32,264 bases of DNA from Flavobacteriales bacterium (lineage in GTDB: Bacteria; Bacteroidota; Bacteroidia; DT-38), in NCBI GenBank assembly GCA_013214205.1, contig JABSPQ010000021.1, positions 1 to 32,264 on the forward strand, in the 5' to 3' direction. The notes beneath the pieces were generated by a model that had not been told where the DNA came from, did no database searches, and saw only the letters and a list, made by a program, of their open reading frames with translations. Numbering within the stretch: position 1 is the stretch's first letter; each line of letters opens with the position of its first letter. Of the stretch, positions 16,091-28,031 are shown piece after piece. The position numbers were made by a program, and so were the translations under genes.

Positions 16091-18304
16091 CTAATATCCA
16101 GAGATGTATACCTTCTTGTTAAATTGTTTCCCTTTAGAAGTTACCCTAACAATGTAAATTCCTTGATTAAGCGAAATCGAGTTCTTCCCATTATTCAAAC
16201 TTGAACGATGAACTCTTTGACCTGTTAAACTGTATACCTCAACCACTCCATTGCTAGCTTTTATAGAGATCGAGTTTCTTTGAACTCTAATTAAATCTTC
16301 TTTAGCAATTTCATTGATGCCAGTAATAGAACTTACATCTTCACAATCTGTGTCGGTACATCCATTACCGTCCGTAGCTGTTACGCAGTAATTACTAGGA
16401 ATCAAGCCCGTTGCGGTTTGAGTTGTCTGAGACCCAGTGCTTACATCCCATACGTAAGTAAAACCCAAAGTTCCACCAAAAAGACTCGCTAAAGCAGTTC
16501 CATTTGCACCATCCGCAGGAGTTGTAGTTACGGTAACTACAAATATTAGCGCGTCGGTGATTGTAATTTGATCTGTTGATTGACATCCATTATCATCGGC
16601 TATTGTTATTGTATAAGTACCTTCTGTCAACCCTGTTGCAGTAGCTGTAGTTTGACTTCCCATATCGCTCCATAAATATTGATAAGCTCCAGTTACTGTT
16701 CCACCGATAGCTGCTGAAGATGCGGTTCCATCTGAACTACCCGCACAAAGAGTATTCGTAGAGCCTATTGCGGAAGCCTCTAAAATTTGTGGTTCAAGAA
16801 TAACTGCAGCTTCTGTTCTTATACATCCATTATCATCCTCAACGGTAATGCCAATTATGCCAGACGATAAGCCATTAATAGTTGAATTTCCTGCCACTGG
16901 GTTATTAGCTGCTGCAGTTCCTGTCCAAGTAATTGTGTAAGGTGCTACACCGCCATAAAAAGCTGCAGTGGCAGCTCCGTTGTTGTCGCCAAAACAATTA
17001 AGTATTGGTGTGTAAAAAGTAATATTAACACTTGGAGAACCTGCATCTGTTACTGTTTGAGCAGTTGAAACGGTACATCCTGCAGCATCCGAAACCGTTA
17101 CTGTATAAGTACCAGCTGGGATGTTAGAAGCTGTTGCTGAAGTTTGTGATCCAAAATCGCTCCATAGATAAGTATAAGGACTTGTACCGCCCGTTACACC
17201 GCCAGCACCACCTACAATTAACACTAATCCGTCGCTTCGACTACAAGTACTTTGCACTTCAGTAGTTGAGAAAGTAATGGCCCCTGGTTCTGTTGGGGTA
17301 CTGGTTACTATTACGAAACAATTGTTATCATCCGACACTGTTATAGTGCGACCAGCAGCTTCGTATGCAAGGCCAGTTAAATCTTCGGTAGTTGCTAAAG
17401 TACTCCAAGCATATTGGTAACTCCCAACAACGCTTCCCCCTGAAACTGCCACATCTATTGCTCCATCACTACCTGCATTACAAGTTATATTAGTAACCGT
17501 TGGGGTAGCAACTAGTAAATTTGGCTGACTCAAAACCTGTTCGGATGATGCTGTACACATATAGTCGTCTTCTACAATAACAGTGTAAGTACCTGCTGTT
17601 AGGCTAGGGTTAACAGCGTTGGAAGTAGAGAATGCTCCGCCCCAAGAGTAGGAATAAACTCCCGCCCCTCCAGCTGGTACTGCTGTTGCAGAACCATTGT
17701 TATCTCCATTACATAAAGGATTTATACCTGACGTTGTTATGGATAAAACTGTTGGATCGGTTAACGTTGTTGTGCCAGAAACAGTACATCCGTTTCCGTC
17801 GGTTATCGTAACCGTATAAGTTCCGGCTGACATACCTGACGCCGCAGCGTTGGTTTGAGAACCAACATCCGACCACAAATAAGTATAGGCACCATCTCCA
17901 CCACTTGGCGTTACAGTAGCAACACCGTCAGAACTCCCATTACAAGTTGCTGCCACATTAGCAAGGCTAGCAAATGGAGCAGAATCAATATCAATCATGA
18001 TGCTATCGGCAGGCGCACCTCCATTAAATCCAGCATCAGATAAAAAGTATTTGTAAGAATTTGATGCAGATGGAGTAAACGTGTTTCCATTGGCATACCA
18101 TTCTGTAAGTTCTTTATCGGTGTACCAACTAACTGCTCCGTATGTATCAATAGCGTTAATTGTAGCAACGGCATCACCTGCACAGTATGCAACATCAGAT
18201 TCTACAATGCTAGGATCTACAGGAGCCGCAACGGTTTCGAATACATTCAGGTTTATTACGAGACAGATTAAAGCCGCTAAGCCAGTTGTTTTGGTTGATT
18301 TCAT
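16091..18304 (-). CDS. SprB-repeat surface protein with type A T9SS sorting domain
   Basis: A 737-residue secreted protein: signal peptide (ends near VFETVAA), an Ig-like CHU-associated N-terminal domain (ESDVAYCAGDAVATI..VSWYTDKEL..NTFTPSAS), then seven SprB-like repeats of about 75-90 residues. Each repeat opens with a CNG(D/S)(N/S)G(T/A)A-type segment, includes Y.WS or Y.W.., and ends G.YTVT..D.NGC. The C-terminal 70 residues are a type A sorting domain (GVVEVYSLTGQRVHRSSL .. GIYIVRV ... KKVYISGY), so export by type IX secretion and surface anchoring are expected. Related proteins act in adhesion or gliding, but no specific role can be assigned. The first 105 residues are almost identical to those of the next gene (start 20227). 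The gene is followed by a strong hairpin. Confidence 0.92.
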   Translation of the reverse strand: MKSTKTTGLAALICLVINLNVFETVAAPVDPSIVESDVAYCAGDAVATINAIDTYGAVSWYTDKELTEWYANGNTFTPSASNSYKYFLSDAGFNGGAPADSIMIDIDSAPFASLANVAATCNGSSDGVATVTPSGGDGAYTYLWSDVGSQTNAAASGMSAGTYTVTITDGNGCTVSGTTTLTDPTVLSITTSGINPLCNGDNNGSATAVPAGGAGVYSYSWGGAFSTSNAVNPSLTAGTYTVIVEDDYMCTASSEQVLSQPNLLVATPTVTNITCNAGSDGAIDVAVSGGSVVGSYQYAWSTLATTEDLTGLAYEAAGRTITVSDDNNCFVIVTSTPTEPGAITFSTTEVQSTCSRSDGLVLIVGGAGGVTGGTSPYTYLWSDFGSQTSATASNIPAGTYTVTVSDAAGCTVSTAQTVTDAGSPSVNITFYTPILNCFGDNNGAATAAFYGGVAPYTITWTGTAAANNPVAGNSTINGLSSGIIGITVEDDNGCIRTEAAVILEPQILEASAIGSTNTLCAGSSDGTASSAAIGGTVTGAYQYLWSDMGSQTTATATGLTEGTYTITIADDNGCQSTDQITITDALIFVVTVTTTPADGANGTALASLFGGTLGFTYVWDVSTGSQTTQTATGLIPSNYCVTATDGNGCTDTDCEDVSSITGINEIAKEDLIRVQRNSISIKASNGVVEVYSLTGQRVHRSSLNNGKNSISLNQGIYIVRVTSKGKQFNKKVYISGY

Positions 18305-18388
18305 AGTATTTAGTTTATTAATAATTCCCTACTAAATTAAAATCCAGTTAAGGATTTGCAAGATAAATAATTAAGCACAAGCACCTAT

Positions 18389-20227
18389 TTAATGACCTGC
18401 TATGTATACCTTCCTGGTAGCTTGCTGCTTATCGGTTCTGATTCGAACCAAATAAATTCCTTTATCTAATTGGATGGAGTTATTACCAGAATTCAAACTA
18501 GATTGATAAACTCTTTGACCCGTTAAGCTATACACTTCCACCACGCCACTATTCGCTTTTATTGAGATGGAATTTCTTTAAACTCTAATTAAATCACCTT
18601 TAGCAATTTCGCTCATTGAAGTTGTATGGTCTACCAATTGGCATTCTGAGGCTGTACATGCGTTTGCATCTGTAACAATTACACAATAGGTGGCTGTCAT
18701 CAAATTGGTTGCCGTAGATGTCATTTGAGCGTTGGCATCATCCCATAGATAAGTATACGTTCCTCCACCTGTACCTCCACTTGCTGCTACCGTAGCTGTT
18801 CCATCACCAGCTCCCGACATAGATTCTGGCGTGCTTAAAGTTGTGGCTATTAATTCCGCTGGTTCTGCTATTGTCATGGATTCAACTACAGTTATACCAA
18901 ATTCGTCTGTAACTGTAACCGTATAAGTTCCTGCCGACAGACCAACTGAACCTGTATTTCCTGATAAAGGAGGGCTCCATATGTAATCCCAAATGACTGT
19001 TAACCCATTGCCTCCTGAAACATAATCGATAAAAACTTCGCCATCTTCTGCCCCAAAGCACGAAACATCGGTTACGGAAGTTGTAAAAACCATATTTGCC
19101 GTACCTATTAAAGTAGTACAAGCAAAGTCTTCGCAACCTTCACTATCGGTTAGAGTTACACAATACGTAGTACCACCTGGAGCTGGTGCACCTGTTAAGC
19201 CTACTGCATTCTGTGTGGTTTGCGACGAAGCATCATCCCCAATATATGTCCATGGGCCATTAATATCTCCACTGCTGGTTACCTCACCTTGGGTATGTGT
19301 TGGAGGAGGGCCAAAAGGATGGGTTACCGCGCTTGCAGATGCTGTTACTCCAGCTAAATCAGCAATCGCACTATTTATATAAATCGTACAACCGTTGTCG
19401 TCAGAAACTATTACGGTATAACTTCCAGCACCAATATTAGTTACCGTAGCACCTGTTTGAGAGCCTGCATCGCTCCACATGTACATATAAGCACCAACTA
19501 CAGTTCCGCCAGAGACGGCTGCAGAAATTTGCCCATTTGATTGGTTACAATAAACATCAGTAGGAGTTGATGAACCCAATAATTCAGGTGGATCTGATAA
19601 AGTGTATTCGTCAGAAATAGTACAACCATTGTCGTCTTCTATTACCACTGTGTAAGTACCAGATGCCAAACCTGATGGCGTGGCGGTTGCCGCTGGCACT
19701 GTAGAACTACTTGTTGTCCAGACATAAGAATAAGTTACTGCAACTGTATATCCTCCTGCCGGCAAACCTGTTAAACTGGCATCGGTAGCCAAAGTGTTCC
19801 AAACATATGTAAAAGGCGAATTTCCAGTTGCTGCTACAGTTACTGTTCCGTTAGATCCGCCATTACAATTTACCAATGTGCTAGAAGCTAAACCAGTTGG
19901 AGCAGAATCAATATCAATCATGATGCTATCGGCAGGCGCACCTACATTAAATCCAGCATCAGATAAAAAGTATTTGTAAGAATTTGATGCAGATGGAGTA
20001 AACGTGTTTCCATTGGCATACCATTCTGTAAGTTCCTTATCGGTGTACCAACTGACTGCTCCATATGTATCAATAGCGTTAATTGTAGCAACGGCATCAC
20101 CTGCACAGTATGCAACATCAGATTCTGCTATACTGGGATCTACAGGAGCTGCAACGGTTTCAAATACATTCAGGTTTATTACGAAACAGATTAAGGCCGA
20201 TAAGACAATTGTTGTGTTTTTTTTCAT
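18389..20227 (-). pseudogene. Second SprB-repeat protein, T9SS sorting domain cut off by a nonsense codon
   Basis: Paralogue of the gene at 16091-18304 with the same signal peptide and Ig-like domain and about six SprB-like repeats. The frame stops at TAA 18578-18580 (LIRV-stop), giving 549 residues. The sister gene has CAA here (LIRVQRNSISI). Past the stop the same frame goes on for 62 codons with a full type A sorting domain (RNSISIKANSGVVEVYSLTG .. QRVYQSSLNSG .. YLVRI ... KVYIAGH) and ends at TAA 18389-18391. A single C-to-T change therefore separates protein from secretion signal. The protein would be made but not sorted to the surface, unless the stop is read through. One repeat junction is also abnormal: GGYTVAVT runs directly into YSYVWTTSS, as if an internal piece had been lost in frame. 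Confidence 0.88.
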
Positions 20228-20392
20228 TGGTTATGTTTGATTAGATTTCCTTTTAGCATTCCCCTAAATGGAGTTTAGTAACTGCAATATAATCAATCAA
20301 TAACAAACGTCTCGTCATTTACAATCTTCAATATTTATGAAGATATTACATTATAGAAATGAGATTGATAAACTCAAGTTTCTTTAACGACG

Positions 20393-21680: not shown

Positions 21681-21707
21681 TATGACACGCGTGGTTGTGA
21701 ATACCCT
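21681..21707 (-). promoter_or_regulatory. Predicted ECF sigma promoter of the LA_2272-repeat gene
   Basis: On the minus strand AGGGTAT, 13 bases, then TGTCATA. The same pattern with identical spacing precedes the TonB receptor (27909-27935) and fecR (24839-24865). TGTC/CGTC is the usual ECF -10 core. The start codon is 22 bases beyond the element. Confidence 0.7.
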
Positions 21708-21740
21708 ATATTGAGATGTGTTTTTTTTAACTTCCCTTAT

Positions 21741-21777
21741 TCGGTGTTCGGTGTTCGGTGTTCGGTGTTCGGTGTTC
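21741..21777. repeat. Five tandem copies of a 7-bp unit (TCGGTGT; GAACACC-type on minus strand)
   Basis: TCGGTGT repeats exactly five times from 21741 to 21775, followed by TC. It lies 34 bases upstream of the -35 element of the predicted ECF promoter at 21681-21707 and past the stop of the gene at 21830. Perfect short tandem repeats change copy number by slippage, so this could tune the promoter; an ORF across it is an artefact. Confidence 0.9.
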
Positions 21778-21829: not shown

Positions 21830-23785
21830 TTAAAACTCAATACCAGCGTTGAAGCCTAACCAATATTTTGAGAAATGATCTTGGTTGGTAAGTACAGACG
21901 TGATCTCTGGTGTGGTAGTTAAATTAAGGATTTCGGAACCGTTGCTAACTTGAATATTTAGTGATGGGCCTACAAAAATGGCAAATCTATTCGCGAAGCT
22001 GTATCCAAAGTTTAGATTTAAACTGCCCTGAAAATCATCGTCGAAGGGATTGCCCGAGCTAAATGAATAGAACATCCCTTCCATGTCGACGTACATTTTT
22101 TGATCGCGAATTCTAGAACCTATTCCGTAACCCACTGCCCAATTTTCATTAGATGGTCCAGGGTGGTAACCTACAGAAAGTATGTTGTAAAACATTTTTG
22201 ATCCCGATTTAAACTTGAAGTGATAGAAACCTGTTGATTCATAAGCTAAATTGTATCGCCTAAATCCTTTCTTAGAAAAACTAAACAACCCTATCGCTAT
22301 ACCCGATTCGATTGTATCAGAAAAGTTGAACATCCCAATTTGAACCCCGTTAACAACCTTGGCGTAATTTAGAAACCCTGCGCCTTGAACTCCTCTAATT
22401 TCTTTGGCAAAGTTGGCAAAACCGGCACCTTGCACTCCAATAACTTCTTTAGCAAAGTTGGCAAAACCAGCTCCCTGCACACCTTTAATTTCTCCAGTAG
22501 CCACATTTACAAAGCCTGCTCCTTGTATGCCTTCCCAATCGCCATGCACAGTGTTTGCAAAACCAGAACTTTGAATACCCTTACCTCCATTGGTAACGAT
22601 GTTGTTAAACCCAGTACCCTGCACGCCATAAAGCGAGCCTCTAACAATATTGCTGAATCCACTTGCCTGAACGCCCTTTACATTAAACCCAGCAATGTTA
22701 CTAAAGCCAGCTGCTTGAACACCCTCTACTTTCATCTTGCTCATGTTCGAAAACCCCGCTGCTTGAATTCCTGTTGTGATTCCTCCATTTATATTTGCTA
22801 AACCAGCCAACTGAACTCCTCTTACATTAAATCTATCGATATTGATAAAAGGAGAAACCTCAACCCCTTCGAGCCCTGCCGAATACCCTATTAACAAATT
22901 GAAGACAAACCCGTTTATAATGGTGCTGGAATTGTGATCGGGATTGGTGCTAACTCCAGGCACAATAGTAAGTACTATGGGCATTTCCGAAATATTTACG
23001 CTATCGTCTATGTGATCAATAATTTTCTTTGAAAGCAATTTGGCCGCCAAGAAGCCTTTATGAACAGGCTGTAACAGTTTTTCTCTAAACGTTTTCCTGG
23101 GTGGTCTTATCATAAACATTTCAGTTGTGTCTTTCGCAACCACGGTGTCTTTAACTACAACTGGTTTTTCAATCTTCTCGATGGTTACAAGTACTACAGG
23201 CTCTTTTTCTAACTGAATATTTAATATTAAATCTGAGTTGATCTTGACCTCAATTTCTTTAGTGATGTATCCTTGCTTGTGGATAATCAATTCCATTTTA
23301 TAATCAGGATTCGGAATTTTTAATTCGTATTCACCATATGAATTCGTGATGCTTTTGATGCCAAGGTATTTATCTTCCACAATTACAGAGTCCAACAAAA
23401 GCATTCTACTCTTATTGGTAATGGTTCCGTTTAAAGTCCAGCCACTCCGCATTTGACGGTCGTCCTTTAAAGGATAAAAGTTGATTTGATCTCCCTCAAC
23501 TTTATATGTAAGCTCAGCTTTCGAACAAAGTGCGTCTAACACAATGCCTAGCTTTTGCTCTTTTACACTAAGGGAAACTTTAAAATCGGGTGGAATGCTT
23601 TTGGCATCGTAGGAAAAATCGAAGTAGGCTTGATCGCTCAATTCGAAGAGCACATCGCTCAACTCATAGTCTTGCGCGTTAATGGTAACCAGCTTATCTT
23701 CTATTTGGGCAATCAGTTGAACCGACCAAAGAACCGTACAGAATAGTACTGCAAGAAATTTAATTGGAACAGCCTTCACCATCAA
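21830..23785 (-). CDS. STN domain / regulatory-like domain / LA_2272 repeat fusion protein
   Basis: 651 residues in four parts: a signal peptide (about 1-27); an STN domain (about 33-105: LVTINAQDYELSDVLFEL, then the IVLDALCSKAELTYKVEGD segment); a carboxypeptidase-regulatory-like domain (about 114-192: LNGTITNKSRMLLLDSVIV, SYGEYELKIP); and, after a basic linker, about eleven 16-residue repeats (323-488: GVQLAGLAN, GIQAAGFSN, GVQGAGFAN) with a strand-rich C-terminus ending YWLGFNAGIEF. STN domains in TonB-dependent transducers contact FecR in the periplasm. The gene starts inside the last codons of fecR (26-base overlap), which strongly suggests coupled synthesis. No TonB plug or receptor barrel is present, so this looks like a non-canonical outer-membrane sensor. 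The receptor role is inference from domains and context. Confidence 0.85.
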   Translation of the reverse strand: MMVKAVPIKFLAVLFCTVLWSVQLIAQIEDKLVTINAQDYELSDVLFELSDQAYFDFSYDAKSIPPDFKVSLSVKEQKLGIVLDALCSKAELTYKVEGDQINFYPLKDDRQMRSGWTLNGTITNKSRMLLLDSVIVEDKYLGIKSITNSYGEYELKIPNPDYKMELIIHKQGYITKEIEVKINSDLILNIQLEKEPVVLVTIEKIEKPVVVKDTVVAKDTTEMFMIRPPRKTFREKLLQPVHKGFLAAKLLSKKIIDHIDDSVNISEMPIVLTIVPGVSTNPDHNSSTIINGFVFNLLIGYSAGLEGVEVSPFINIDRFNVRGVQLAGLANINGGITTGIQAAGFSNMSKMKVEGVQAAGFSNIAGFNVKGVQASGFSNIVRGSLYGVQGTGFNNIVTNGGKGIQSSGFANTVHGDWEGIQGAGFVNVATGEIKGVQGAGFANFAKEVIGVQGAGFANFAKEIRGVQGAGFLNYAKVVNGVQIGMFNFSDTIESGIAIGLFSFSKKGFRRYNLAYESTGFYHFKFKSGSKMFYNILSVGYHPGPSNENWAVGYGIGSRIRDQKMYVDMEGMFYSFSSGNPFDDDFQGSLNLNFGYSFANRFAIFVGPSLNIQVSNGSEILNLTTTPEITSVLTNQDHFSKYWLGFNAGIEF

Positions 23786-24824
23786 TTATAATTATCCCGT
23801 TCTTTTCTTTTATTTGAATGTTGAAGTTGTTCTGAATGTTCTCTAACACTTCTCCAATCGTTTTATCTCGGAACTGACCAGTAAATAAGCAACTCGCTAC
23901 ATTATTATTCGCCAACTCTATTTGCACATTGTAATGATCTTGTAAATCGATGATGGCAGCTGTCATTTCAACTCCACTAAATCTTAATACGTTGTTTCTC
24001 CACGATGCAAAATTATGACTTGTTAAATCTGTTTTTACGAGCGTGCCATCTGTAATGTTATAAATGCCATGCTCTCCTTTACCTATTTCAATTGCATTGC
24101 TCTGGTCTTCGGTACCAAAAAGCATAACGTTTCCACTTTTTACTTTTACTTCAATAAAATTGTCAACTTCTTTTACCAAAAAGGATGTTCCCAAAACTTT
24201 TACCGTTGCACTGCCAACTCTAATTAAAAATGGTTTTTCTTCATCTCTTACAACATCAAAAAACGCTTCACCTTCTAATTCAACTTCCCTAATGCCTTCC
24301 TCAAAGTTGGTTGGGTATTTAAGAGTACTTCCTTTTTTGATGCTAACATCACTGCCATCGGGAGTTTTAACGTCCTCTTTTTCCATTAAAGCAATGGCAT
24401 TCATCACACTTTCATCTTCAACCGTTTCTTCAATGGTAGCAACAGCAGACACACTGTTGTTGCTATTGTTGTTGTTGTTCATATAATAATAGGAAACGCC
24501 CAAGCCAACAATTAAAATTGCGGCGTATTTCATCAATCGGTTCGTGCTTTCTTTAACGGCATGCATTACAGGGGTAGCTTCTTCAACTTCCGAAGTTGCT
24601 ATGTGATCCATTATATTTCCCCAAGCTAAATCCACATCTACTTCAATTGGTTCAGAATCGTTTGCTTGGCTAACCTGCTCTTGCAATTTTTTAATTTCTT
24701 CAAACTCGATTCTATTTTCATCATTTTTTAGCCATTCCGTTACCAGCTGCATTTCTTCCGAATTACACTCGTTGTCCAAATACTTGTACAACATATCTTC
24801 TATATGTTCATTAGAATTGCTCAT
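23760..24824 (-). CDS. FecR family anti-sigma factor
   Basis: Inner-membrane anti-sigma factor of the FecR type, 354 residues. The cytoplasmic N-terminus (about 1-95; MLYKYLDNECNSEEMQLVTE, AWGNIMDHI) binds sigma; one membrane segment follows (about 98-114, MKYAAILIVGLGVSYYYM). An Asn-rich stretch encoded by a (GTT/TTG)n-like microsatellite comes next, then the periplasmic FecR domain (about 150-245: TPDGSDVSIKKGSTLKYP, GEAFFDVVRDEEKPFLIRVG, VKVLGTSFLVK), and a C-terminal DUF4974 domain (MTAAIIDLQDHYNVQIELAN ... TIGEVLENIQNNFNIQI). Gene order sigma-fecR-STN protein fits a surface-signalling cascade. Its own ECF-like promoter sits only 15 bases before the start, so the mRNA would be nearly leaderless. 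Confidence 0.95.
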   Translation of the reverse strand: MSNSNEHIEDMLYKYLDNECNSEEMQLVTEWLKNDENRIEFEEIKKLQEQVSQANDSEPIEVDVDLAWGNIMDHIATSEVEEATPVMHAVKESTNRLMKYAAILIVGLGVSYYYMNNNNNSNNSVSAVATIEETVEDESVMNAIALMEKEDVKTPDGSDVSIKKGSTLKYPTNFEEGIREVELEGEAFFDVVRDEEKPFLIRVGSATVKVLGTSFLVKEVDNFIEVKVKSGNVMLFGTEDQSNAIEIGKGEHGIYNITDGTLVKTDLTSHNFASWRNNVLRFSGVEMTAAIIDLQDHYNVQIELANNNVASCLFTGQFRDKTIGEVLENIQNNFNIQIKEKNGIIIIDGEGCSN

Positions 24825-24838
24825 AGTATTCTCAATTA

Positions 24839-24865
24839 CTTGACACTTGACTGATAAAACACCCT
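24839..24865 (-). promoter_or_regulatory. Predicted ECF sigma promoter of the fecR-STN operon
   Basis: On the minus strand AGGGTGT, 13 bases, then TGTCAAG, in the 67-base gap between the sigma gene and fecR. Spacing is identical to the copies at 21681-21707 and 27909-27935, which differ from it only by one base in the -35 part and two in the -10 part. Confidence 0.65.
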
Positions 24866-24891
24866 ACATCTATTTTTAAAATTCTTTTCAT

Positions 24892-25458
24892 TTAGTTAAA
24901 AAATATTAAAATTAGAATGGTCATAAACTCTTTTAATTCCGTCCGAAGCGTCTTTAAAGCCCTAGAAACATTGGCTTCTACAGCTTTTTTAGAAATCTTC
25001 ATTTTGTCGGCTATCTCTTGATATTTTAATCCTTCAAATCGACTTAATTCAAAAGATTTTCGGCATTGTTCGGGCAAAGCAGCTATGCTTGCCATAATTT
25101 TTTGATCTAATTCGGCAGAAATTAATTCGTCATGCACAGTAACTTCAACATGGGTTTCTCCTATTAAAACGGCTTGCGTTTCGTGACTGTCTTTGATTTT
25201 TCTATGTCGAAGGTGATTAAGAGAACTATTTCTAACCGACCTATACATGTATGATTTAGGTGACTCCTGAATATCGATAGAATCTCGTTTGTCCCAATAT
25301 CTACAGAAGAAATCCTGAACGGTTTCCTCTGAGAGCGCAACGTCTTGAAGGTATTTATTCGCAAAACCAACCAATGGTTGGTAATACGTTTTAAACAATA
25401 CCTCAAACGATTTCTGATCGCCTGATTTCACATTCTGTACGAGTAATCTTTCCTCCAC
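24892..25458 (-). CDS. ECF RNA polymerase sigma-70 factor
   Basis: 188-residue group IV sigma factor. Region 2 (about 20-90) includes FEVLFKTYYQPLVGFANKYL, VQDFFCRYWDKR and SYMYRSVRNSSLNHLRHRK; region 4 (about 122-172) includes IAALPEQCRKSFELSRFEGL and the helix-turn-helix YQEIADKMKISKKAVEANVS. The start is GTG at 25458: a TGA lies two codons upstream in frame, and the nearby ATG is in another frame. There is no TonB-box promoter directly before it; the gap to the TonB receptor gene is 47 bases, so it is probably co-transcribed with that gene. FecR is encoded next, its presumed anti-sigma partner. Confidence 0.96.
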   Translation of the reverse strand: MEERLLVQNVKSGDQKSFEVLFKTYYQPLVGFANKYLQDVALSEETVQDFFCRYWDKRDSIDIQESPKSYMYRSVRNSSLNHLRHRKIKDSHETQAVLIGETHVEVTVHDELISAELDQKIMASIAALPEQCRKSFELSRFEGLKYQEIADKMKISKKAVEANVSRALKTLRTELKEFMTILILIFFN

Positions 25459-25505: not shown

Positions 25506-27869
25506 TTAAAAATAAACTCTGTAGATAAGATTTGGAATAATGCTCAGTTGTCTTTCGTAAACAATCTCACCATTGTTGAAATATTCGTTTAATCTGGCTT
25601 GGTTGTTCGTAATGTTCAAGATGTCGATTTGAAGCTCTCTTGTTGTTTTGCCCTTGTTTCTTTTCATGCTCATAGAAAAGTTCATTTGAAAAACAGGATC
25701 ACCTTTCGCTTCGTTTCGTAAGTCATAATTACGTTCTTCAGTTTCAATGTCGATTGCCGTGTATCGTTTAGGGCCTCCTAAGAAAAACTTTGTATCCAGA
25801 CTCAACGTTCTGTTCTTTTCTGCTTTACCAAGTCTCATTGTTTTACCAATCAGAAAGTTTGCCGTATAGTTACCGTTGTAAACCGTGTTTCTCCACACGC
25901 CATCAAGTGCTGCATACTTCGATTCGAACAAGGATGCATTCACCAAGAAATAGAATTCGTTGTCTAAGAATCTTTCGAATGTTATTTCTACACCGTAGTT
26001 CTTGCCTTTTCCTTCACTCGTTAAATCGATATTTTTAAACCAATCGCTTTGATCTATAGAAGAGTAGTTTTCTTCAATATCGTTAGCAACTGGTATGTCT
26101 CTTAGCTGCTGATAGTATACTTCTGCCTTAATATTAATTTTCTTGCTAACGCGGTGGTTGTACCCCAAAACATAGTGGTTAGACTTTATCAGTTTTAAAT
26201 CTTCGTTTACCAAATTGCCAATTGAATCTGTTACAGAATAATTAAGCAATGATTCACTTTTTGAGTGCATTCCAAAGCCCAAATTTAAAGCTCCCTTTTC
26301 CGACATTTTCCACTTCATGGCCAATCTTGGTTCTACAGAAGTTTCGTTGTTTAAGCTATAATGCATTGTATGAAGTCCACTAACCATAGTAAGTTCTTCG
26401 CTAAAACGGTGTTTCCACGAAACGAATCCTTGGTAAAGCATTTCGTTTTCTTTCATGTCCATTTCAAGATATCTCTGTTCGTCATCCTCATCATAGTAAT
26501 CCGAAAAGTTGACGAATGTGCTCTGCTTAACAATTACACCCGCTTTAATCCTGTTTTTAGCATTGATCTTATTATTTAAAGTAATAGCATATCTCAATCG
26601 GTTTTTTGATAAATTACTGTGTGCTTGGTTGCGGCTCACTGAATCTTTTGCCAGTAGTAACCTGTCCGACATAAAGTCTTCTTTATCTATATCCGAATAG
26701 AAATACGTTTTCTCTCCATCGTATCCGCTACCATTAGTTGACAGGGCAACAGAAGATTTTATAAAGGTTTTATTATTGATAAAATACGTGTTAGAAAGTC
26801 CAACAACACCCATATACGATGAGTATTTACCTTGCCAAGATCGAACTGGATTCGAAGTGTCTTTATAAGTTTCTAAAATACTACTCATTCCACCAATTCC
26901 GAAGAGAGAAAAGATACCAGCCTTTTTTGTTGGCACATGAATTTTAAGCGCTGCATCTGTGTATTTAGGAACTCCGTTAAAATCTACCACTCCCAATCCG
27001 TCTAATAAAGCCAACGAAGAATAACGATAATTAAAAAGATACGATGCCTTGCTGCTATCGCTAAACGGGCCTTCTGCTGTTGCATCCAATCCCAAAGCAC
27101 CCAATCCAACCGAGTATTCTCTTTTCTCATTGTTTCCCTTTCTCAGTTTCATGTCCATAACGCCAGAGTAAGCGTTGCCATATTCGGGCGCAAATGCACT
27201 GGTAGAGAAATCTGAATTATCTAGAATATTTGATGTAAGGATGCTAATTGGTCCACCTGATGCGCCCTCATCCGCAAAGTGATTAGGGTTTGGAATCTCC
27301 ACATCATCCAATCTCCATAAAATTCCTTTTGGCGAATTACCTCTAACAATAATATCGTTGTTGCCATCGTAGTTACCGCTAACGCCTGCAAATGCAGATA
27401 CCATACGAGAAGGATCGTTAAATGAACCCGCGTACTTTTTTGTTTCCTCAACGGAAATTGCTTGGGTGCTCGAAATAGACATTTCGTTTTGTGCTACAGA
27501 AACATCTTGCCTAGCCGTTATTTTAACTTCGCCTAGCTGAGTTAAGGATTCAAGCAGGTTGATTTCCAATACAACTTCTTTACCTGTGTTTACCTCAACG
27601 TTTTGAATTTGTGTGTTTTCATAACCTAAGGCAGAAATGGTAAGGTTTATTCGACCGATTTTCACATCGGTCATTTTAAAGTAGCCATCAATGTCTGTGG
27701 CGGCTCCTTTAAATGGATCGGAACCAGGGATTATAATGTTGGCACCAAATATTGGAGCTTTAGAATCTTCGTCTACAACTCTACCTCTTACGGTTTGGGT
27801 GAGTTGTTGCGCGTTTACTATTTGTGCAATGAAAAATAGGAATGTAATGAGTGTCAGTTTAGCTTTCAT
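25506..27869 (-). CDS. TonB-dependent receptor with carboxypeptidase-like N-terminal domain
   Basis: Outer-membrane active transporter, 787 residues. Signal peptide (ends near IVNAQQ); carboxypeptidase-regulatory-like domain (about 25-110: RGRVVDEDSKAPIFGANIII, TDIDGYFKMTDVKIG); plug domain (about 120-240: SFNDPSRMVSAFAGVSGNY, NDIIVRGNSPKGILWRLDD, GGPISILTSNILDNSDFSTS, GNAYSGVMDMKLR); and a barrel ending in RQLSIIPNLIYRVYF with terminal Phe. It lacks an STN domain. No SusD-like partner lies next to it. Substrate unknown; the plug motif GNSPKGILWRLDDVEIPNPN is typical of the Bacteroidetes 'TonB-dependent receptor/carboxypeptidase-like' group. It begins the sigma operon and has an ECF-like promoter 40 bases upstream. 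Confidence 0.94.
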   Translation of the reverse strand: MKAKLTLITFLFFIAQIVNAQQLTQTVRGRVVDEDSKAPIFGANIIIPGSDPFKGAATDIDGYFKMTDVKIGRINLTISALGYENTQIQNVEVNTGKEVVLEINLLESLTQLGEVKITARQDVSVAQNEMSISSTQAISVEETKKYAGSFNDPSRMVSAFAGVSGNYDGNNDIIVRGNSPKGILWRLDDVEIPNPNHFADEGASGGPISILTSNILDNSDFSTSAFAPEYGNAYSGVMDMKLRKGNNEKREYSVGLGALGLDATAEGPFSDSSKASYLFNYRYSSLALLDGLGVVDFNGVPKYTDAALKIHVPTKKAGIFSLFGIGGMSSILETYKDTSNPVRSWQGKYSSYMGVVGLSNTYFINNKTFIKSSVALSTNGSGYDGEKTYFYSDIDKEDFMSDRLLLAKDSVSRNQAHSNLSKNRLRYAITLNNKINAKNRIKAGVIVKQSTFVNFSDYYDEDDEQRYLEMDMKENEMLYQGFVSWKHRFSEELTMVSGLHTMHYSLNNETSVEPRLAMKWKMSEKGALNLGFGMHSKSESLLNYSVTDSIGNLVNEDLKLIKSNHYVLGYNHRVSKKINIKAEVYYQQLRDIPVANDIEENYSSIDQSDWFKNIDLTSEGKGKNYGVEITFERFLDNEFYFLVNASLFESKYAALDGVWRNTVYNGNYTANFLIGKTMRLGKAEKNRTLSLDTKFFLGGPKRYTAIDIETEERNYDLRNEAKGDPVFQMNFSMSMKRNKGKTTRELQIDILNITNNQARLNEYFNNGEIVYERQLSIIPNLIYRVYF

Positions 27870-27908: not shown

Positions 27909-27935
27909 TATGACACTCGGATTTATGCATACCCT
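27909..27935 (-). promoter_or_regulatory. Predicted ECF sigma promoter of the TonB receptor-sigma operon
   Basis: On the minus strand TATAGGGTAT, 13 bases, then TGTCATA. It matches the element before the LA_2272-repeat gene in every base of both motifs, with unrelated sequence in the spacer. Its position upstream of the operon that probably includes the sigma gene implies positive autoregulation. Confidence 0.7.
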
Positions 27936-28031
27936 ATACAGGAATAACGAAAGTACAGCTAAGTAGTTATAACAGTGTGGTTTTAGGCTAAATAAAACTT
28001 AGTATTTATGGTATTGGTGTTCTTTTCTGTA

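Follow-up and report, generated by a model that had tools for sequence, protein, structure and literature searches.

The STN-bearing protein of a Flavobacteriales bacterium (DT-38) presented here probably serves an ECF sigma/FecR cell-surface signalling system as its transducer in the outer membrane, the STN domain being borne by an LA_2272 repeat protein in place of a TonB-dependent receptor. A widespread group of Bacteroidota appears to have wired an outer-membrane protein of the functionally uncharacterized LA_2272 type to an intracellular gene switch by means of the signalling domain known from TonB receptors. The linkage of this fusion protein to fecR argues strongly for an ECF sigma/FecR pathway whose input lies at the outer membrane. 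The window analyzed is the whole stretch of 32,264 nucleotides of contig JABSPQ010000021.1.

Organization of the locus

The genes of the locus lie on the minus strand and are transcribed in the order TonB receptor, ECF sigma factor, FecR, STN fusion, and LA_2272 barrel without STN. The TonB-dependent receptor (25506..27869) consists of a carboxypeptidase-regulatory-like (CPD) domain and a plug only, in agreement with the original prediction that it lacks STN. It is followed by the ECF sigma factor (24892..25458), which matches TIGR02985 above the cut-off, and by the FecR anti-sigma factor (23760..24824) with its FecR and STN-like FecR_C domains. The fecR product also matches the solved anti-sigma factor 4m0n (E 1.2e-29) over FecR residues 148-346. 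With an ECF sigma factor adjoining a FecR that has both domains, the sigma/FecR half of the system does not depart from the usual FecI/FecR sigma and anti-sigma pairs.

The fusion gene (21830..23785) is an open reading frame of 651 codons. Its first in-frame ATG is found at 23782 and is the probable start, leading to an overlap of 23 bases with fecR. The overlap of 26 bases given originally holds only for a TTG start. Downstream lies the paralogue P0002 (20474..21658), an LA_2272 repeat barrel without STN and a predicted target gene. A short tandem repeat of CCGAACA (21730-21775, minus strand) is located between both genes, just upstream of a predicted promoter. Further downstream two SprB-repeat proteins with near identical N-termini are encoded (16091-20227, minus strand), and the one at 16091-18304 carries a Por secretion sorting domain at its end.

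Domain architecture of the fusion protein

The fusion is organized as signal peptide, STN domain (residues 32-105; 23471..23692, minus strand as for all its parts), CPD domain (residues 116-192; 23210..23440), a probably disordered linker (residues 198-260; 23006..23194), 11-13 LA_2272-type repeats, and a C-terminal barrel (residues 501-651; 21833..22285) whose last residue is Phe. The original prediction of a signal peptide, an STN domain, a regulatory-like domain and about eleven repeats in one protein is confirmed, the regulatory-like domain being CarbopepD_reg_2 (residues 119-195). An N-terminal STN domain after a signal peptide is the arrangement of FecA-type transducers.

HMM searches with the STN and LA_2272_repeat (NCBIfam NF047436) models, proposed originally as a check, were successful for 18 (Pfam, best 9e-10) and 17 out of 26 fusion homologues, respectively, but left the fusion of the window itself below both cut-offs (STN 14.3 bits; FecR_C 16.0 bits). 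The CPD domain was found in all 26 homologues. The STN identity of the N-terminus is nevertheless established by the homologues together with three further lines of evidence: a profile of the family aligns with the N0 domain of PilQ (E 5e-4) over residues 28-109, hhalign aligns the fusion STN with the STN of SusC receptors adjoining fecR at 99.3%, and the AlphaFold2 model of residues 32-105 shows a beta-alpha-beta-beta-alpha-beta-beta order with a pLDDT of about 72-89. The STN fold predicted for residues 33-105 can therefore be regarded as confident.

In the same model the linker has a pLDDT of mostly 32-52 with few short predicted helices, and the repeat region reaches 93-97. Foldseek searches with the model returned CPD domains, secretin N0 domains and outer-membrane barrels. 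A shorter homologue (L066) gave the same picture and matches the 8-strand barrels OmpA, OprF and NspA. As pTM values were 0.54 and 0.67 for the two models, the relative placement of the domains is uninformative. The C-terminal barrel resembles 8-strand proteins and not the 22-strand barrel of TonB-dependent receptors. Neither the window fusion nor the families listed for the 26 homologues include a plug or receptor match, with the exception of three homologues matching the SusC/RagA NCBIfam model, probably via STN-CPD. Because the fusion lacks a plug, no TonB box is expected in it.

The LA_2272-type repeats

Eleven clear G(V/I)Q.AGF.N repeats occupy residues 323-493 (22307..22819, minus strand), flanked by two degenerate copies, with a period of 16 and then 15 residues. 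Across fusions and proteins of the LA_2272 family without STN (LA-only proteins) the number of repeats is mostly 5 to 16, and odd and even numbers are both common. A closed antiparallel barrel with one strand per repeat is therefore unlikely. The single-unit additions suggest, as far as the repeat sequences can tell, stacked coils of a solenoid rather than one transmembrane strand each; alternatively, the repeats may form part of the barrel. The window fusion is joined to the LA_2272 family through P0002 (BLASTP 4e-55), which itself scores above the cut-off of the LA_2272_repeat model.

Linkage to fecR in other genomes

Protein searches over 149 genomes of the same class yielded fusions in 27 of them, and a pattern scan over 84,980 species genomes yielded 80 loci, some on contigs already found. 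After removal of duplicates 88 distinct fusions remain. This count and those derived from it take in related species and do not stand for independent events. All are from Bacteroidota and are distributed over at least seven orders (Cytophagales, Chitinophagales, Sphingobacteriales, Flavobacteriales, Saprospirales, Bacteroidales, Marinilabiliales). LA-only proteins are found in Balneolota, Spirochaetota and Myxococcota as well.

For 85 fusions more than 1.2 kb of upstream sequence is available. In 84 of these fecR is directly upstream, with a gap between −130 and +128 bases, and in 78 sigma-fecR precedes the fusion, compared to no fecR upstream of any of 67 LA-only proteins. The position beside fecR is thus kept in related genomes, as the original prediction demanded. 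The sole fusion with neither sigma nor fecR nearby (L099:7917-9806, Chitinophaga silvisoli) might be served by a sigma/FecR pair encoded far away, or be a remnant. In a concatenated sigma and FecR tree with a weak backbone, 76 of the 78 fusion-linked pairs cluster, with one FecA-linked row inside; the pair of the window nests with pairs from other families and not with the paralogues of its own genome.

A DUF2807 (“head GIN”, putative adhesin) lipoprotein is encoded within 7 kb in 25 of the 88 fusion loci, and a DUF4249 lipoprotein is present in six. In Porphyromonas gingivalis, a protein with DUF2807 functions as an adhesin (PMC10949514). The predicted targets are thus proteins of the surface and the outer membrane.

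Other STN and FecR proteins of the host genome

The host genome (5.1 Mb) contains eight FecR loci, seven of them with an STN protein beside fecR, and there is no TonB receptor among these seven STN proteins linked to sigma-FecR. This lends support to the original idea that a repeat barrel replaces the receptor as signal input. The six further sigma-FecR-STN sets all encode non-TonB barrels. Five are STN-linker-small-barrel proteins of 456-483 residues (L067 and L157-L160), and the sixth (L156:6001-9782, host contig C111) is an STN-CPD-ankyrin protein of 801 residues with a barrel-like C-terminal part, next to sigma-fecR. The sigma factors of the five small-barrel sets form one clade (support 100) common to a genome of the same genus (G001). 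We also observed that each of these five sets (contigs C221, C294, C421, C98 and C152) adjoins a large secreted or surface-like protein. The remaining STN match of the host is, judged by sequence, a secretin-like protein adjoining an ATPase gene.

TonB-like genes are present in the host genome, and none of its 17 plug-domain receptors carries STN. Since the plug receptors lack STN and the FecR-linked STN carriers are non-TonB proteins, FecR-linked signalling of this genome appears to operate with no TonB receptor that bears an STN domain.

Predicted promoter and regulon

The promoter motif was derived de novo from an unbiased k-mer count 5' of the sigma genes. TAGGGGT occurs 5' of 30 out of 78 sigma genes (0.9 expected) and, together with TTGTC, also 5' of LA-only genes and adjacent TonB receptors. 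Aligned, the motif consists of TAGGG(G)TA and TTGTCNTA, separated by a spacer of almost constant length, and mostly lies 20-60 bases ahead of the open reading frame, leading to the two-block consensus TAGGG(G)TA-N14-TTGTC. Exact two-block matches were found for 27 of 78 sigma genes, 20 of 44 LA-only genes adjoining a fusion and 13 of 30 adjacent TonB receptors (0.0-0.1 expected), and before 10 of 85 fecR genes. At the sigma gene, the exact motif is missing in about two thirds of the loci, and half of the loci have no match even at one mismatch. The motif is absent from the fusion gene's own, operon-internal start (0/86) and from 26 control sigma-FecR loci of the SusC, FecA and small-barrel types. 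It precedes 12 of 683 other open reading frames, most of them DUF2807-like genes or a barrel gene of about 200 residues of the same loci. A protein of about 200 residues with the pattern QMD.G.A.PK.GGIGA has a predicted promoter in L104:11954-12607, L110:9592-10197 and L120:12135-12740; in Cyclobacteriaceae its gene is flanked by those of the LA-only protein and the TonB receptor.

In the window three sites are present on the minus strand (shuffle expectation 0.04). TATAGGGTAT-N12-GTGTCATA is predicted as sigma promoter for the TonB receptor (27909..27938) and for the LA-only gene (21681..21710), and TAGGGT-N15-TGTC for fecR (24842..24866). The nearest relative (L033) has the fecR site at an unchanged distance. 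A TAGGGGAA word is found at 20259-20266, just 5' of the SprB-repeat gene other than that at 16091-18304, with no matching TGTC block in the scans.

The strict form TATAGGGTAT-N12-GTGTCATA was built from the window sites, the motif itself coming from other genomes. At 0-2 mismatches the 5.1-Mb genome contains its two perfect 18-base matches and no others. A shorter pattern gave nine matches genome-wide, three of them in the window, with ten for the backward control; outside the window, looser patterns gave no more than background matches. As the strict form occurs genome-wide at the two window sites only, the regulon is predicted to comprise just the locus. The computational promoter evidence speaks strongly for the predicted circuit acting back on the locus, and control by the switch appears to be confined to this gene cluster.

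Proposed mechanism and alternative explanations

The mechanism we propose starts from the computed features, namely the domain make-up, the obligate fecR linkage, the common promoter motif and its confinement to the locus in the host genome. The C-terminal barrel would anchor the fusion in the outer membrane, where the repeats could bind or report something at the cell surface. Carried by a long flexible linker, the STN-CPD arm would span the periplasm and contact the STN-like C-terminal domain of FecR, a contact we infer by analogy to PupB/PupR and FoxA/FoxR. A change at the surface would alter this contact and lead to processing of FecR, which as a relay between fusion and sigma would set the sigma factor free. 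The latter could then transcribe the TonB-receptor/sigma operon, fecR with the fusion, and the LA-only barrel from TAGGG(G)TA-N14-TTGTC. The LA-only paralogue, sharing the barrel and lacking STN, is the likely output. Proteolysis as the mode of FecR processing, the direction of the signal, a ligand and independence from TonB are presumed parts of this scheme.

A variant compatible with the proposed transducer is that the STN domain keeps FecR protected, so that the system would report loss or mis-assembly of the LA_2272/TonB-receptor/DUF2807 layer instead of a ligand. As long as there is no signal, the STN of FoxA shields FoxR from proteolysis (PMC11637429), and the predicted surface and outer-membrane targets include the sensor's own barrel family; by this analogy the variant is possible, albeit somewhat doubtful. 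A different arrangement would be a split receptor, where the substrate is bound by the adjacent STN-less TonB receptor, which, driven by TonB, signals laterally to the LA_2272 barrel, the fusion being its detached arm. The model can be considered because the receptor gene shares the predicted promoter, both in the window and in the 13 of 30 cases above, and a TonB receptor of a 790-residue subfamily is encoded no more than 4 kb away from 36 of the 85 fusions and from 23 of the 67 LA-only genes. More than half of the fusions, however, have no such receptor nearby, and in the stretches read the STN small-barrel proteins of the host have none beside them either, and we consider the split receptor unlikely. 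Secretins carry STN/N0 domains as well (cf. the PilQ matches), and STN could serve only for oligomerization or anchoring here with an incidental fecR neighbourhood; with fecR directly before nearly all fusions and before none of the LA-only genes, and a promoter common to locus and sigma gene, this is highly improbable.

If the fusion is indeed a non-TonB transducer, the FecR pathway could be driven by other surface proteins. Taking the host sets into account, there might be a class of TonB-independent signalling in Bacteroidota in which an STN adaptor sits on interchangeable barrels (LA_2272, small, ankyrin-repeat) and has replaced TonB-receptor signalling entirely in some genomes, with LA_2272 proteins as both input and target of a self-contained sigma circuit; our own judgement of this wider proposal is evenly divided. 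The defined promoter offers itself for reporter tests in cultured species of Chitinophaga, Pedobacter or Algoriphagus.

Comparison with known systems

Cell-surface signalling through FecR has been described as requiring a TonB-dependent receptor and TonB energy (PMC9249621, PMC11637429), and we found no paper in the open-access literature tying LA_2272 or a non-TonB STN protein to FecR. The system shares with FecA/FecR/FecI (also PupB/PupR and FoxA/FoxR) the ECF sigma factor, a FecR with STN-like FecR_C domain, an outer-membrane protein with N-terminal STN, the adjacent genes and a control of the local locus, which is predicted in our case. The STN carrier of the FecA type is a plug-containing TonB-dependent receptor, whereas here it is a protein of 16-residue repeats with a small C-terminal barrel, and a CPD domain and long linker intervene. 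Having kept STN and being devoid of the plug and the large receptor barrel, the fusion would represent a variant of the transducer in FecI/FecR cell-surface signalling.

The SusC/RagA receptors beside ECF sigma/FecR in Bacteroidota have the same STN-CPD order and homologous STN and sigma/FecR families. Unlike the fusion they are TonB receptors of 1085-1201 residues, and their sigma genes lack the TAGGGG/TGTC motif (0/12). The STN small-barrel and ankyrin proteins of the same genome share the sigma-fecR-STN order and the lack of a plug. They differ from the fusion in an OMP_b-brl_2-like barrel without LA_2272 repeats, a separate sigma clade and the lack of the TAGGGG motif.

The LA_2272 surface-repeat/VC2662 family (NF047436, NF047437) has the G.Q..GF.N repeats and the C-terminal domain in common with the fusion, while the LA-only members examined here lack STN and the link to fecR (0/67). 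We found no established function for this family; VC2662 is an uncharacterized protein that shows enrichment when ompU of V. cholerae is mutated (PMC10865864). If correct, our proposal would provide the first functional context for LA_2272/VC2662 proteins, which occur in several phyla.
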